Translations under genes and position numbers: made by a program
The notes under the pieces: model-generated
Told to the model about the DNA's origin: nothing
Databases searched by the model: none
What the model saw: only the letters and a program-made list of their open reading frames with translations
Part shown: piece after piece, positions 17,969-37,600 of the stretch
Layout of the letters: each line of letters starts with the position of its first letter
How positions within the stretch are numbered: the first letter of the stretch is position 1
NCBI GenBank assembly: GCA_021030905.1
Contig: JAGFMI010000015.1
Coordinates: forward strand, 930,001-994,000
Reading direction: 5' to 3'
DNA length: 64,000 nt
DNA from: Pyrenula massariospora
Lineage: Eukaryota > Ascomycota > Eurotiomycetes > Pyrenulales > Pyrenulaceae

Positions 17969-18815
17969 TTTCGAATGTGGAAATTAGATGATGCGAGCAC
18001 GGTGAGGGTGAATGGGAGGTATAGCGGAGTAGAAAGAGATCGCTGAGAATGTGGCGACAATTGTATTCGCGAAAATGGTATGACATCCGCCTTGATAACT
18101 TGGAGTTTCGCCGAGGGCTTATCCTGAAATAGCAGCCGAGGTCGGCCATTAGGCTTTCTATGATGGCGCAGCGTTTGATAACGTGAATACTGGTGACCGC
18201 TTTTAGGCAGCTTCCGTGCCTATCTGCTCTACCTCGGTAGGTACAGGTAAGTAAGGTACCTTTGACCGCAACTTTGCCGGTTGACTGTATTTAAGGTATT
18301 CTATTTTAGCCGGATACAGCAGTTTGTGCAAGAAAGAAAGAACCATCTAGGATGTGCGAAAAGGGAAAGAGCCATCCGGTGTGTGCAAAAGGGAAAGAGC
18401 CATGTCTAATGTATCTGAAAAGGAAAGAGCCATAACTTTGGGGACATTATTGCATTATCGTGGGAGCTTAAATAAGCCTCATTGTAAGGTTAATTAGTGC
18501 TCAAAACCGGCTTCAGTACGCTCGGGGAATTGCTCTCGTGGATCTTGCGAGAGCAATCCCTCAAGACAGCCAAGATCAAGACTTCATAAATCACGTGACA
18601 CACATATCCAACGTGAGCCCTCATCCGCTGTCAGCGTCCTTTCTTCTCCTGCTGCGCCGTAAAAGAGCATTACAAGAGCGTAGCACGACCATTGAGACCG
18701 AGCCAAGGATGAATGCGAAGCCTGTAACGAGCTGGACGCGCAAAAATTGCGGGCTGTTCGTCTGCTGCAATTTTAGAGCGATAGGCTCAGCAACTAGAGC
18801 AACGTCAGATTCATT
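17969..18815. other. Intergenic region with tandem repeat
   Basis: Contains TACCTCGG/GGTACC-type elements near 18230-18262 and four degenerate copies of a ~29-bp unit (listed separately). No gene is supportable. Confidence 0.6.
18322..18435 (+). repeat. Degenerate ~29-bp tandem repeat, four copies
   Basis: The core GAAAGAGCCAT recurs at 18336 (as GAAAGAACCAT), 18365, 18393 and 18423, each preceded by TGTGCAAAAGG-like sequence. Spacing is 29, 28 and 30 bp. It lies upstream of nothing coding on the plus strand and beyond the 3' end of the MFS gene. Confidence 0.8.
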
Positions 18816-20190
18816 TCAATGATCAGACCAAGCGACATTCTTACAAGCGGTAGGAATGCCAATTCCGGTCCAGATAATGGAAAGCGCGGCTGGCAGTGCC
18901 TCTATCCCTAGTATTTCGGTCAGGAGAGGGGCGATGACCTGTTTAGATTTCAGTCCAGTCCTAATGTCTTCAACTTGGGCTTCCACCGACCGTAAAGAAT
19001 GTGCCACACACAGTGCCTGCTAGAAATGAGAATGAGAGTATCGATGGATATGATTTAGCCCAAGGCCAGAAAAGGAGCGACAGTAGTCCACAAAGAAATG
19101 TTGCATAACCCGCCATGTTGACAACACCAATTCTGTCGCTAAGGAAGCCTACTATTGGGCGCCCAAAACCCATTCCCAGATTGACGAGCGCACCGGCCAT
19201 AGCTGCTTGTTTGATCCCCAGGCCAGCATCGATACTGCTGTCGGGTATAGAGAATAAGATAAAGGTGTAACCAAGGGTGCTGAGACATGACCAGCCAAGG
19301 ACTAGGAGGAATCGATAGTCCCTCAGGAGGCTCAAGTCGAAAGCCTGCTGGTTCGGAGAGATTTGTCTGTTTCTATCCCGTATCAACAATGCTGATAGCG
19401 AGGTCGTTGTAAGGACCGTAAGCGCAATGACGCGAAACGACCACCTTAGGCCGAGCCTATCGATCATTGCTTCAGCACCTAACGAATATGCCAGTCCCCC
19501 TAAGCCACTGCCAGAAGCTGCAATGCTTGTCGCGAAAGATCGCCGTTTATTGAACCATTGAGGCACTATCCCGACTGATCCGACGAAAAGGAAGCTACAC
19601 CCCCAGCCAAAGCAGAGGCCTTGTGTGAGACAGAGATGCCAGACTTTTGTGGCGAAGCTCGCAAGAATGAGTGAGATCGTCTCGAGGATCACTCCGATAG
19701 CTAGGGTAAATCTTGTCCCAAATCTTCGACCAACGTAGGTGACTAGAGGTGCGATAAAGGTAATCTGCGAGATAGAGAGGCCGCCGATGAAAGCGTACGT
19801 GATTTCTGAAGCGTCTGTAAAAAGGTTGGAATGAAGATAGTGAGCAAGATAAACGCCAAATGCCTGGTGAACCATTAGTCAGGAAGCAATACAGTCTCGA
19901 GCTTTTGATTGAACGGTTTTCCGATGGCTCGCGGTAGCATCCGAAATGCTGTGAGGACTTACTCCATTCACACCCCACGTGTTGGCAATAATCAACAGCA
20001 TGCAAGCAACACATACCCAGCCATATCCTCCATCAGGCTCCGTTGATAGACTCTGTGTAGCATCAGGTCGAGCATAGGATTCTTCCAACCGAGCCTTGAG
20101 TTGAGCATCGTCGACGTTGCTGCTAGTTATAGATACAAGGGAAACTTTGGTTCCCAGTCCCTTCTCATTGGTGTCAGCTTGCTCTACCAT
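18816..20190 (-). CDS. MFS transporter, monocarboxylate-transporter-like
   Basis: Three exons on the minus strand, 20190-19963, 19863-18991 and 18938-18816, give 407 residues. The cytosolic N-terminus (MVEQADTNEKGLG) leads to PDGGYGWVCVACMLLIIANTWG, the D-G-G-Y-G-W-V opening of the fungal MCT/MCH-like MFS family. About eleven to twelve hydrophobic helices follow, with YVGRRFGTR after TM3 and GRPIVGFLSDRIG as the family's loop motif. The last intron uses the donor GTCGGT. Transport of monocarboxylates or related small acids is a family inference only; many members are exporters linked to secondary metabolism. The longer open frame upstream of 20190 was not included because the family starts near this ATG. 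Confidence 0.85.
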
Positions 20191-33025: not shown

Positions 33026-33030
33026 AAAAA
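33026..33030 (-). terminator. Pol III T5 terminator
   Basis: Five T on the minus strand begin nine bases after the tRNA discriminator base. No run of four T occurs inside the gene, so full-length Pol III transcription is possible. Confidence 0.7.
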
Positions 33031-33038
33031 GTAACGTC

Positions 33039-33170
33039 AGGTCCTGCCAGGACTCGAACCTGGGTTTCCGGAAATCTTTTTCATATCAGAACTGTTTATA
33101 GTGTTAGTAATGCTCAAGGGGATGAAAGGACAGTCTTACTCCGAAGTGATAACCGCTACACTACAGGACC
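33039..33170 (-). tRNA. tRNA-Gln (CTG) with two apparent introns
   Basis: The ends pair as a 7-bp acceptor stem (GGTCCTG with CAGGACC), discriminator T. The D arm (GTGTAGCGGTTATCAC) and T arm (CCAGG TTCGAGT CCTGG) are complete and the body matches tRNA-Gln. The 5' part of the anticodon stem, TCGGA, ends at 33140 and is followed at once by GTAAGA, then TACTAAC (33109-33103) and AACAG (ending 33092): a complete 48-nt spliceosome-type intron. Removing it places loop TTCTGA, anticodon CTG, next to the stem. A short ~12-nt insert then sits after base 37, the canonical tRNA intron position, before T and stem TCCGG. If instead only one canonical intron existed, the anticodon would be AAG on a Gln body. 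Confidence 0.8.
33092..33139 (-). other. Spliceosome-type intron inside tRNA-Gln
   Basis: 48 nt, donor GTAAGA, branch site TACTAAC with the branch A 12 nt before the acceptor, acceptor AACAG. Length and signals equal those of protein-gene introns in this window. Confidence 0.65.
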
Positions 33171-33420
33171 AAATCCATGCACAATCGAAGCTAAAGAAAT
33201 TTATATAATTTACATAATTTAATTTCAACACTGGGATCGCATAAGTCTTCTAGAGTGGGGTGAGCTAGGTGTGGAGTCCCCTAAGCTTGGCCTACCGCGG
33301 AATTTCGATTCCGCCAACCTCCCCTCGAGGGCCTCCGCCTGGATATGAGTCTCGCGCATGGAGCTGTCGTAGGTCAGGTAGTTGCTAATTAGCTTGTTGC
33401 CTCGCACGAACATTTCTACC

Positions 33421-34392
33421 ATGTCACCCTCTCCCTCGCCATCCTCTCCGGATACAGATATGCCCCGCATAAAGTTCAAAGTCGATACCTCCCGCGCTCT
33501 TGCCCTTACAGAATCCTACAAATCGGTCCTACACACGCTCAAGACTGCTACCTCCTCTACTTCCTCGGCCAGATCACTACCACGTCTAGTATGCGTCTCC
33601 AAACTCAAACCCGCCTCCGATATCCTTGCCCTCCACTCCCCCTCCCACTGGCTCCCCCAGCTGCCCTCCTCCGAACAATCTGCCGCGAAAAGCACCTTAC
33701 CCGAACCAGCCCTCCACTTCGGCGAGAACTACGTGCAAGAGCTCCTCGAGAAATCCAAAATCCTCCCCGACACGATCAGATGGCATTTCATCGGCGGCCT
33801 CCAATCCAACAAGGCTGTACAACTCGCCCGCGACGTCCCCGGCCTGTGGGCCGTTGAAAGCGTGGACACTGTCAAAAAAGCAAAATATCTCGACCAAGGG
33901 AGGGCGCAGCAGAATCGCGTCCACGACCAGCCGTTGCGCGTGTTCATCCAAGTCAACACCTCGGGCGAGGAGAGCAAATCCGGTGTCCCGCCCAATCTGC
34001 CGGAGCCCAAGCCGAAGTACTCGGCCGCGCACGACCAGGAGGCGCTGAAAGAGTATCCTCTCCTCGCTCTGGCGGCGCACATCCAGGATTCGTGCCCGAA
34101 GCTGCGTCTTCAAGGGTTGATGACGATCGGGGCGCTGGCGCGGTCGCAGGCTACGACGCCGGAGACGGAGAATGACGACTTTCTCTGCCTAAAGGAGACG
34201 AGGGATCGGCTTGAGACCTTACTATTCCTCGATAAGGGGCAGCTGGAGCTTAGCATGGGCATGTCAAACGACTTTGAGGCTGCAATACGGCAAGGCAGTG
34301 ATGAAGTGAGAATTGGAAGTACGATCTTTGGGGAACGGCCGCCGAAGAAGGAGGCTAAAGTGCTGGAAAACACAGAGGGACAGCAAACGTGA
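33421..34392 (+). CDS. PLP homeostasis protein (YggS/PROSC family)
   Basis: Single exon, 323 residues from the ATG at 33421. It has the Ala-racemase-N fold landmarks of the YggS/PLPBP family: LVCVSKLKPASDI with the Lys that binds PLP, HFGENYVQELLEK, IRWHFIGGLQSNKA, VFIQVNTSGEESKSGV, LRLQGLMTIG and the C-terminal LSMGMSNDFEAAIRQGSDEVRIGSTIFG. Every block is intact. The protein binds pyridoxal phosphate without a known reaction and buffers B6 vitamers and amino-acid pools. There is an extended, low-complexity insert after LALHSPSHWLP and another after KSGV compared with bacterial members. It lies 250 bp from the tRNA gene, divergently. Confidence 0.95.
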   Translation: MSPSPSPSSPDTDMPRIKFKVDTSRALALTESYKSVLHTLKTATSSTSSARSLPRLVCVSKLKPASDILALHSPSHWLPQLPSSEQSAAKSTLPEPALHFGENYVQELLEKSKILPDTIRWHFIGGLQSNKAVQLARDVPGLWAVESVDTVKKAKYLDQGRAQQNRVHDQPLRVFIQVNTSGEESKSGVPPNLPEPKPKYSAAHDQEALKEYPLLALAAHIQDSCPKLRLQGLMTIGALARSQATTPETENDDFLCLKETRDRLETLLFLDKGQLELSMGMSNDFEAAIRQGSDEVRIGSTIFGERPPKKEAKVLENTEGQQT

Positions 34393-34667: not shown

Positions 34668-37600
34668 TCAGGTTTCTCCTGTTCCTAAGGACAACTTTTC
34701 CTGCATACTCTTCAGTAGTACTTGTGGGACGGTGTCTTGGGTTGCACGGATTGTTACGCGGAACATCTAGTAGAGCACCGTTTCGTCAGCACAAGCCGAG
34801 GATGGTTCGAACATTCCAGGGAGACCAGCGGGAACGACTTCGATGAACATACCTTCTGCTCATAATTCGGCTCCAATCGTAATAAACATCCACATTTCCC
34901 CTTCTCCATCTGGAACACCGCGCAACCCACTATGTTCTTGGCATTTGGATCTACCGCTGTCAGGACTTTCCACTTAAATCCTTCTACTACCCTTCTCGTT
35001 GAACTCGGATCCATGGTTTTGGTGCCCTTTCCAACCGTCACTAGCCCGAAGGTATTCTGAGCCTCCAGCGGACCTGCACCGATCTGCTTCCAGCGTTTGA
35101 AAAATTCTTCTGCAGAAAGCTCTGATGGCTCCATATATTTGTGGGGAAGAACAGGAAGCTTAAGTGTGTAAGCTTGGAGTGCGCCAGCAAGATAGGAAAG
35201 TCGGATGGTCGGACTCTCTTCAAACGGGCCCTTGCACATAAAGAAAGCGGTCTGTTGGACTTGCTGCCCTGCGCCAACATTTGGGTCAGGCAGACTTTTG
35301 GTGTCAATCTTGAGACCCTCAGGGCTTGCATTATCAAGTGTAGTAGTAAATGAGCCTACGGGAAATGAAGACTTGTTCGTGAAGTAGAGCTTAACGACGC
35401 CGATGTGAGCGCGGTACTCACTACGAATACCGACCTGGATCTGCGCGTCTTCAAAAAGGATGCCTTCTGCGGCGAAGAAAAGACGATTGAAGCCGGGTTC
35501 CCAATCGGGGGTAAGGTGAGCGGCAGAAGCGAGGTTCGGGAGTGAGGCTTCAGAGTGGCCATTCATGTCCAGACCAGCAAGGTCTGAGGTCGAGGAGCCG
35601 TTTGTGGGCGACTTTTCCACTGGACTAAACGTGGAAGTTCTCGAAGAGATTCCATTTGGAGGGCCAGAAGACGTTCCGTTTACAATGCCGGTAAATGTTC
35701 GTTTGAGTCCAGTGGTCTGGGCCATCTGAACCTCTTTCTTATCAGCATTAGCATCCTTTCCACCAACAACCCATGTCCGCTTCTCGCTCGTGCCAACCGA
35801 CTTCCGGTGAAGGCGTGAGAGGAGAACAGACGCTCTTTCAGAGAACGGAGGCATCTCATCGCACACCGTTCGAAGAAGCTCATCTGTTGGCATGGTAGCC
35901 AGGGTTATGTATTCACAGGCTCGTTGCTGAAGTTCAGAGTCAGGAGAATGGCTGTAGAAAGCAAAGACACTGAGCAGTTGAGGTTTTATTTCGGGAAATA
36001 GATTGACGAATTTGATGAAAGAGGACAGCAGCAGGGCTCGCGTCGAGTCTGAGCAGCTCATCATCTTCGACTGTAAAGCCATGAATTGCTCAATTGGACT
36101 GCAGCCTTGATTATCAGCAATCAGGTGACCGAACTCCCCAAGAAGGTAGCCACCGATCTTAATCAAGGTGTCGTGGCAGTTGTCTCCCTTGACATACTGT
36201 AGGATGTTCGAGGCAGCATAAATTTGAAGTTCTTCGTTATTGGTGACGATTTGAACGACCCGTTGCCACACTTCGTCACTCACGTGCTCACCAGCCATGG
36301 CCAGGAGCCGGAGAGAGATATCAACGTACCACCTTGCATCAGTGGCATATTTTTCCGTAAGAATAGCAATCTTCAACACCATCTCTTCCCGCATTGCAAA
36401 GTCAGCAGTTTGCAAATATCGTAGAAGCTCATTGACAATGGGCTGCGCATTGGTCGTATCACACATGCTATAGAGGAGATCGAGACCTTTTCGGCGCACA
36501 CTGATGTCACGATCTCTCAGCGATCCGATTATTATATTTTGGTGCTTTTTGATAGGGTCAAGCGTCTCAGCCCTTGCAGCGAAATGTGTCATTGCATCAA
36601 GGCCTAAGTATCGTACATTCGTTTCTCGTGATTGAATGAATTTTCCAAGTTTTGAAGAAATTTGCATCATCAGGTTATGTTCGGTATCAAGGTGAATGAG
36701 GAGGTTGATGGCTTCGAAAAGGACAGCATTCTGGGCGTTGTTCTGTTGTACATTTTTTGGCATTTCTATAGCGTTTTGAAGAATTCGTTGCACGGATTCC
36801 CTTATAATTTCCCTGACATGGGTATCTTCTGTAAGACTCGTCAGCACTGTCTTCCATCGTCAAAGAGAATGACTACCAGAAGGCGGGTAATATTGTAAAA
36901 TCTTGAGGAATTTGACTTGGATCCATGGGCAAGGAACCTTGTAGTAAAGATAGTCTTCTGAGACATCGCTGTCGACAGCAATTCTCTTTAGTCGTTGTGC
37001 CGCCTTGACGTAGCTGCCTTTGTAGGCTTCTGGTCGGTCTTGGATGAGGGCCATCACCAGGGATGTTACAGACAAGGTCACACCCATATCCGAATCGTCC
37101 ATTAAAGAGATGATTCGTTCGGCCCATTCTTGCTGGACGATGCCCGGGTGTTTCCTGTATAGCCGAAGTAGGGTGAGAGCGGCCTTCTTTTTGACGAAAG
37201 ATTTGGATGTCCTGTCCGTGTTGTCAGCACACTGGTCGTTGGAGAAATTCACTTTTGACGTACGGCGAGATTAGAAGCCTATGCACATCTGCGCTCAAGG
37301 CCTCACCCATCTCTCGTCCTCCCACGTTTGCAACCGCATGCAGCGCCAAGCAGTTGTTGAGCTCATTGTGATCCAACAAGTCCTTCCGAATACTGTTGAC
37401 GACTAGATGAATGAGTTCATGCTCCTCATGAAGGAACAATGTAACGGCTAGGTATCCGATTTGCTTCTCCGAATATTTGTTTGCTGAGATCAAGTTGACG
37501 GCTTCCAGATGTCCGAAGTCCACATTGTACCCCTGAATGTAGATGTAAAGGAGCTTGCAGACGTATTTTTTCTTCTGGTAGCCATCCAAATTTCCACCTT

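Follow-up and report, generated by a model that had tools for sequence, protein, structure and literature searches.

Putative spliceosomal introns in tRNA genes of Pyrenula massariospora

The 48-nt insert that interrupts a tRNA-Gln(CTG) gene of Pyrenula massariospora is, with a probability of roughly 0.8, an ordinary U2-type spliceosomal intron in a gene of Pol III type, and one of many. Inserts of this kind were found in 15 nuclear tRNA genes (21 inserts at 15 positions in standard numbering, this gene included), a genome-wide extent that goes beyond the earlier sequence-only reading, which described a single gene. The splice signals, the positions of the inserts, the restored structures and identities, and the recurrence are all features of the DNA itself. 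It also seems likely that mRNA-type introns have spread through a large share of the cytosolic tRNA genes and that the spliceosome is an obligatory part of tRNA maturation. If so, single genes would carry several introns, even in the acceptor and T stems, translation would depend on pre-mRNA splicing, and many tRNA genes would be invisible to the standard tRNA finders.

The interrupted tRNA-Gln(CTG) gene

The window, meaning the whole 64,000-nt stretch of DNA that was analysed, lies on contig C6 of the genome. The single tRNA that cmscan (Rfam tRNA) identifies in it occupies exactly 33170-33039 and scores 46.1 bits (gathering score 29); ARAGORN in its bacterial setting reports no tRNA in the whole window. 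The parts of the gene are as follows.

33140..33170, minus strand: exon 1, bases 1-31 (acceptor 5' strand, D arm, anticodon-stem 5' strand, A box)
33092..33139, minus strand: 48-nt spliceosome-type insert at 31/32 (GTAAGA...TACTAAC...AACAG)
33109-33103, minus strand: branch sequence TACTAAC, its branch A 12 nt upstream of the end of the 48-nt insert
33086..33091, minus strand: exon 2, bases 32-37 (TTCTGA), anticodon CTG
33074..33085, minus strand: 12-nt canonical 37/38 intron of TSEN type (read by ARAGORN, after splicing, as Gln(ctg) i(38,12))
33039..33073, minus strand: exon 3, base 38 to discriminator T (anticodon-stem 3' strand, T arm, acceptor 3' strand)
33060-33050, minus strand: B box, within exon 3
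33026..33030, minus strand: T5 run, likely Pol III terminator

The intact Gln-type body that had been read on the minus strand is borne out by the cmscan match, and all arms of the mature form pair (acceptor 7/7, D 3/3, anticodon stem 5/5, T stem 5/5). Every element described for the 48-nt insert is likewise present, from donor GTAAGA through branch TACTAAC at 12 nt to acceptor AACAG, as are the insert of about 12 nt after base 37 (12 nt at 33085-33074) and the T5 run following the gene (33030-33026). Structure-based prediction before and after removal of the 48 nt, which had been proposed as a check, changes the ARAGORN call from Leu(aag) with a 60-nt intron to Gln(ctg) with a 12-nt 37/38 intron, in agreement with the predicted loop TTCTGA and anticodon CTG. 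A cloverleaf of correct identity, as expected of a nuclear tRNA, is obtained after intron removal.

The borders of the 48-nt insert are unique (0 equivalent placements), so GT..AG at both of its ends is an event of about 1/256. The insert sits at 31/32 and carries donor, branch, and acceptor, in contrast to a canonical TSEN intron at 37/38; the latter position is occupied in this gene by the separate 12-nt intron only. With its A box, B box, and T5 run, the locus is by sequence only a Pol III-type gene. Transcription of the tRNA runs away from a YggS-type gene at 33382-34392 on the plus strand. The best named protein matches come from Pyrenula ochraceoflavens (YggS-type PLP protein, 66%; AP-2 alpha, 89%), which points to a fungus of Pyrenulales type (Eurotiomycetes, Chaetothyriomycetidae). 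The proteins P0001, P0121, and P0241, close relatives of three window genes (77%, 92%, and 84%), are seemingly encoded by one ENA contig of 33,057 bases.

The mRNA introns of two window genes, located via homologous proteins, provide a small sample for comparison (n = 6), from which three examples are given here.

37212..37263, minus strand: AP-2 alpha mRNA intron, 52 nt, GTACGT..TGCTGAC..CAG, branch to end 12
36829..36876, minus strand: AP-2 alpha mRNA intron, 48 nt, GTAGTC..TGCTGAC..CAG, branch to end 12
18794..18844, minus strand: MFS transporter mRNA intron, 51 nt, GTAAGA..ATCTGAC..TAG, branch to end 11

All six are GT-AG introns of 48, 51, 52, 52, 86, and 99 nt with a branch-to-end distance of 11-19 nt, and 4/6 pass the YTRAY test applied to the tRNA inserts below. 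The tRNA inserts resemble these introns and have the length, termini, and branch of a U2-type intron. The rules for fungal introns given in the excerpt of PMC5832005 are GT-AG and RCTRAY at 6-36 nt.

Fifteen interrupted tRNA genes

The 15 genes belong to seven isotypes (Gln, Arg, Leu, Ser, Lys, eMet, and Asp), and their inserts range from position 12/13 to 71/72, in the D, anticodon, variable, T, and acceptor arms. In the following list the number after the contig gives the mature bases that precede each insert.

Gln(CTG), C6: 31
Gln(TTG), C3: 31
Gln(TTG), C16: 31 and 62
Gln(TTG), C5: 62
Arg(ACG), C22: 28 (position 29/30, within the anticodon stem)
Leu(CAA), C27: 33
Leu(TAA), C4: 33 (GC-AG)
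Leu(AAG), C30: 27 (position 26/27) and 78 (acceptor stem)
Ser(AGA), C30: 52 (variable arm) and 78 (acceptor stem)
Lys(CTT), C15: 12 and 64
Lys(CTT), C3: 33 (ends TTTG) and 71
Ser(TGA), C2: 23
Ser(CGA), C32: 23
eMet(CAT), C4: 16
Asp(GTC), C15: 50 and 60

Removal of the inserts leaves an acceptor stem of 7/7 pairs in 14/15 genes (the exception being Gln on C3, 6/7), a T stem of 5/5 in all 15, and an anticodon stem of 5/5 in 13/15 (Gln on C16 and eMet, 4/5). The anticodons then match the bodies, and the discriminator base 73 is G in the Ser and Asp genes and A in those for Leu, as expected for these tRNAs. ARAGORN assigns the isotype of the body to 13/15 spliced genes, with Leu(TAA) on C4 called Lys(ttt) and Gln on C16 given no call. 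Run on the native genes, it returns the same isotype and anticodon for just three of the 15 (Arg(ACG), Ser(AGA), and Gln(TTG) on C5), a wrong call for six, and no call for six. A canonical 37/38 intron is also present in 13 of the 15.

Two individual loci deserve description. In the tRNA-Asp gene (L179 80-290, C15:242950-243330) the two inserts leave between them a 10-nt exon, GGTTCGATTC, that is practically the B box alone. In Lys(CTT) on C3 (L036, C3:627650-627950, minus strand) the insert after base 33 reads GTGAGT..AGCTAAC and ends TTTG in place of AG. This last locus, together with L035, L041, L112, L140, and Gln on C16, had been taken for a pseudogene with a broken 3' end; that assignment was dropped when a second GT..AG insert was recognised, which in L041 was its first and only one.

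Two Arg(CCG) genes (L039 and L040) probably add two inserts. Their GT..AG acceptor-stem inserts give 7/7 pairing once removed, but since the acceptor still pairs 6/7 by eye when they are left in place, and ARAGORN calls Arg(ccg) in both forms, these genes are counted as probable only.

Splice signals and insert properties

The termini of the 21 inserts are GT-AG in 18, against an expectation by chance of about 0.17 of 21 for GT..AG when equivalent placements are counted; the other three are GC-AG, GT-GG (Gln on C16), and GT-TG (Lys on C3). Exon borders were set by hand from the tRNA fold and the splice rules, and 10/21 have no equivalent placement. The last exons of Ser(AGA) on C30 (3 nt) and Lys(CTT) on C3 (2 nt) are so short that the second inserts of these genes constitute weaker evidence; leaving both out gives 16/19 GT-AG. 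Donor position 5 is G in 19/21 inserts and position 6 is T in 15/21. A YTRAY motif lies 9-14 nt from the end in 19/21 (CTRAY in 16/21), as compared with 12% of shuffled inserts (window 7-15 nt, two inserts taken too short), and the inserts without YTRAY at the proper place are those of Leu(AAG) at 26/27 and Ser(AGA) at 70/71. Lengths fall between 46 and 56 nt, with a median of 48.

Candidate donor-branch-acceptor triples in the window show no overall excess (27 vs 36.6 in shuffles). Those of 45-54 nt number 10 vs 5.4 in shuffles and those with a branch distance of 12 number 4 vs 1.3; these counts are not used as support. The inserts of different tRNA families show no similarity among the ten compared, and only those of the Gln paralogues are alike. 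A many-copy family of introner type does not emerge either: a DNA search with the window gene returns three places (itself, C3:367087, and C16:233159), all tRNA-Gln.

Some properties speak against easy expression, namely TTTT in 5/21 inserts, which could be a stop to Pol III, and the introns at 12/13 and 16/17, which split the A box. TTTTT occurs in none of the inserts.

The tRNA-Gln paralogues

The gene search and the D-arm and anticodon-arm patterns together yield five tRNA-Gln loci. The Gln(TTG) gene on C3 has a 47-nt insert at the same site as the window gene (31/32; GTAAGT..TACTGAT..CCAG) and one U.U mismatch in its acceptor stem (6/7); ARAGORN calls it Phe in native form and Gln(ttg) when spliced. 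Gln(TTG) on C16 carries a 47-nt insert ending CCGG at 31/32 and another one within the T stem, and with C33 and an altered T loop its sequence looks decayed. The remaining two loci, both on C5, are a Gln(TTG) gene with a T-stem insert only (C5:113349) and a Gln(CTG) gene without any spliceosome-type insert (L022, C5:111226). Comparison with other Gln(CTG) genes of the genome, a check put forward with the original observation, turns up this uninterrupted copy, so the gene in the window could be dispensable.

Three copies have an insert at 31/32; compared pairwise, these inserts agree at 32/48, 33/48, and 32/47 positions, and the mature forms of the same copies differ at 9, 16, and 18 of 72; over all Gln loci the differences are 9-21 of 72. 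Compensating change was counted over four related sequences, the row for Gln(TTG) on C5 including the T-stem intron as body, and finds nine cells in which both partners of a base pair have changed vs a shuffle mean of 3.5.

The patterns used were the Gln D arm (≤3 mismatches, 80 matches), a D arm one base shorter (2 mismatches, 5 matches), and an anticodon arm without interruption (1 mismatch, 95 matches). All nine D-arm matches with ≤2 mismatches were inspected or known, as were 2/71 with three mismatches, one being Val. The five exact matches to the anticodon arm comprise two Gln genes, one non-tRNA place on C3, and places on C7 and C24 that were left out; one-mismatch matches were left out of the Gln count. 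A BLAST-type search started from a typed Gln sequence recovered a single locus, one already known, and is so insensitive that its negative result carries no weight.

Survey of the genome

The survey was pattern-based and covered the organism's own 37.8-Mb genome (33 contigs). Scoring 63/1116 candidates against RF00005 gave at least 41 matches. The B-box pattern GGTTCGANYCC has 97 matches, of which 70 were examined, 19 fall in loci or the window already included, and eight lie on C25/C26; a GGTTCAA pattern added 10 matches from 100 of 215 places. These 80 B-box-type pieces (70 + 10) were read only if they had ≥4 T-stem pairs. A class II D-arm pattern has 37 matches (7 already included, 10 examined, 2 on C26, 18 left out), a Lys-type D-arm pattern 2, and a Val/Asp/Glu-type D-arm pattern 15 (3 examined). 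Exact-pattern scans of viral and prokaryote collections gave no match, which is uninformative on fungi.

At least 46 tRNA-like loci were found outside C25 and C26, the contigs with organelle-like tRNAs. These 46 comprise 15 with spliceosome-type inserts, 2 probable, 24 without (23, one with a T stem of 3/5, and L170), and 5 unparsed. The inventory is incomplete, genes for Phe, Tyr, His, Asn, Ile, Pro, and Trp falling outside the identified set.

For nine anticodons every nuclear locus found is interrupted: Gln(TTG) with three genes, Lys(CTT) with two, and Arg(ACG), Leu(CAA), Leu(AAG), Ser(TGA), Ser(CGA), eMet, and Asp with one each, their sole locus found. Uninterrupted genes were sought specifically for Gln, Arg(ACG), the Lys-type D arm, and the class II D arm, with eMet and Asp outside this search. 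An uninterrupted Arg(ACG) anticodon arm has four matches at ≤3 mismatches, and the three examined by eye are non-tRNA; the Lys(CTT) D-arm pattern at ≤3 mismatches finds only the C3 gene and one non-tRNA place.

Alternative explanations

The sequence-only reading offered two alternatives, a spliceosomal intron that had entered a tRNA gene or a dead copy. The former is strengthened by 14 further genes with inserts of like size and signals at many positions, and by the tRNA structure and identity that are restored on removal.

That the interrupted loci are dead or dying copies, with the cell's tRNAs supplied by uninterrupted genes, is unlikely. Uninterrupted Gln(CTG) (L022), Leu(TAA) (L037), and Ser(AGA) (L028) do exist, the survey is non-exhaustive and may have missed others, Gln on C16 lacks both AG and U33, and Gln(TTG) on C3 has its U.U acceptor mismatch. 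In the excerpt of a review (PMC4090602), moreover, short insertions in eukaryotic D and T arms are taken as signs of pseudogenes, found mostly in one of many synonymous copies. Against this, the spliced genes have a perfect acceptor in 14/15 cases and a perfect T stem in 15/15, and dead copies would not be expected to retain donor, branch, and acceptor. The Gln loci have moved 9-21 of 72 positions apart with pair changes on both sides well above the shuffled mean (9 vs 3.5). In addition, nine anticodons are without any uninterrupted nuclear gene found; if all of their loci were dead, codons would be left unread unless genes were missed, which makes dead copies unlikely. As for the window gene in particular, all of its arms pair, and the Gln(TTG) paralogue retains the insert signals though its stems have changed in compensating pairs; a dead copy is thus not supported here.

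Less probable still is the suggestion that these are ectopic tRNA introns of the kind seen in Crenarchaeota or Cyanidioschyzon merolae, cut by the tRNA splicing endonuclease, with GT-AG incidental. Precedents in the D, anticodon, and T arms are described for nucleomorphs, with similar ones in C. merolae nuclear genes, in the excerpt of PMC4090602. The best approximation to the required motif is seen in the Arg(ACG) insert, with 3/4 central, 3/3 intron-side, and 1/3 exon-side pairs. A simple pairing count with shuffled controls nevertheless finds a bulge-helix-bulge (BHB) in 0/21 inserts, and even the 4-bp central helix is found in 0/21 vs 1.8% of shuffles. The excess of GT..AG (18/21 vs 0.17 expected) and the constrained branch distance also argue against incidental termini, as do the canonical introns: among the 13 in the 15 genes one has GT..AG and is 16 nt long, and GT..AG occurs in none of the canonical introns of ≤39 nt that were listed.

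The notion that the window tRNA has one 60-nt canonical 37/38 intron and the anticodon AAG agrees with the native Leu(aag) call and with a loop, G32-T33-AAG-A37, that obeys the rules, and is scarcely credible, given that the body is Gln, that AAG on a Gln body without the class II long variable arm presumably makes no sense, that the Gln(TTG) paralogue would also give AAG and the C16 copy ACG, that the bases preceding the canonical intron read CTG and TTG, and that the inserts in other arms are left unexplained.

Proposed maturation pathway

TSEN relies on the mature body to cut at 37/38, and the spliceosome is nuclear. For a U2-type spliceosomal intron in tRNA-Gln(CTG) we infer the use of the spliceosome, the order of the steps, and the function of each copy. 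The nuclear spliceosome would remove the 48-nt insert from the primary transcript and thereby restore a pre-tRNA that retains its short 37/38 intron. Following the known pathway, TSEN and Trl1 would then take out the 37/38 intron, only after the spliceosome has acted. The D stem, the variable arm, and the T and acceptor stems are outside the cutting sites of TSEN. Introns in the acceptor or T stem would require spliceosomal splicing ahead of RNase P and 3'-end trimming, and with acceptor-stem inserts the last exon would have to be joined before 3' trimming.

Such a pathway would give the spliceosome a part in making tRNA, a role outside current understanding, and would set two splicing machines to work one after the other on a single RNA of about 72 nt. 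It would also offer a sensitive natural assay of the spliceosome on Pol III transcripts and on tRNA exon pieces down to 2-12 nt in length, and a case of spliceosomal intron gain where every tRNA molecule needs correct removal. The tRNA sets of related genomes would then be under-annotated.

Relation to known systems

Introner elements are numerous short spliceosomal introns, and in this the inserts are like them; unlike introner elements, tRNA inserts of different families are dissimilar (ten compared). The canonical nuclear tRNA intron, handled by TSEN and ligase at 37/38, is itself present in the window gene (33085-33074), in contrast to the 48-nt insert with its donor, branch, and acceptor at 31/32. 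Introns of U6 are reportedly the subject of a 2016 study by Canzler et al.

The closest parallel is provided by the introns of fungal U3 snoRNA and U6 snRNA, which are mRNA-type introns inside a small structured non-coding RNA. Those of U3 have GT-AG termini and a RCTRAY branch in the same distance range, occur in some paralogues of a genome and are absent from others, and sometimes number two per gene (PMC5832005, excerpt). According to the same excerpt, no small structured RNAs other than U3 and U6 were known in 2017 to be interrupted frequently. The hosts described here are, unlike these, tRNAs (at least 15 genes, 15 positions), and the introns mostly lie beside TSEN-type ones.

The non-canonical tRNA introns of archaea, nucleomorphs, and C. 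merolae resemble the present inserts in being spread over many sites of the tRNA, with more than one in some genes. The archaeal and C. merolae introns depend on BHB-type motifs, in contrast to our inserts, and those of the Guillardia nucleomorph measure 3-24 nt, against 46-56 nt with a splice-site consensus here (PMC4090602, excerpt). The excerpt treats C. merolae introns as endonuclease substrates and nucleomorph ones as unexplained, D-/T-arm insertions elsewhere as likely pseudogenes, and does not contain the word stem "spliceosom". Archaeal non-canonical introns were sought with BHB models in the excerpted part of PMC8450103. No report of spliceosomal introns in tRNA genes was found among the best matches in openly licensed literature (titles and abstract starts, few subscription papers).

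Other tRNA-like loci

An uninterrupted class II tRNA (L170 36-120, C11:1037360-1037690) is called Ser(gga) by ARAGORN, an anticodon that, to our knowledge, is unexpected in a fungal cytosolic set. Four tRNA-like loci without isotype assignment, L050 (two places), L079, L115, and L168, several of them GC-rich, could be tRNAs with more than one interruption or repeats derived from tRNA; acceptor and T stems are paired in three of the four. On C26 (15 kb; L044 and surrounding loci) the order of the organelle-type tRNA genes is mirrored on both strands, the arrangement that a palindromic assembly or a large inverted repeat would give. Finally, several unrelated tRNA genes (L008, L016, and L034, on C8, C27, and C20) are followed by a sequence, AGAAG.GT..TTTTTGCC.., that is similar by eye.
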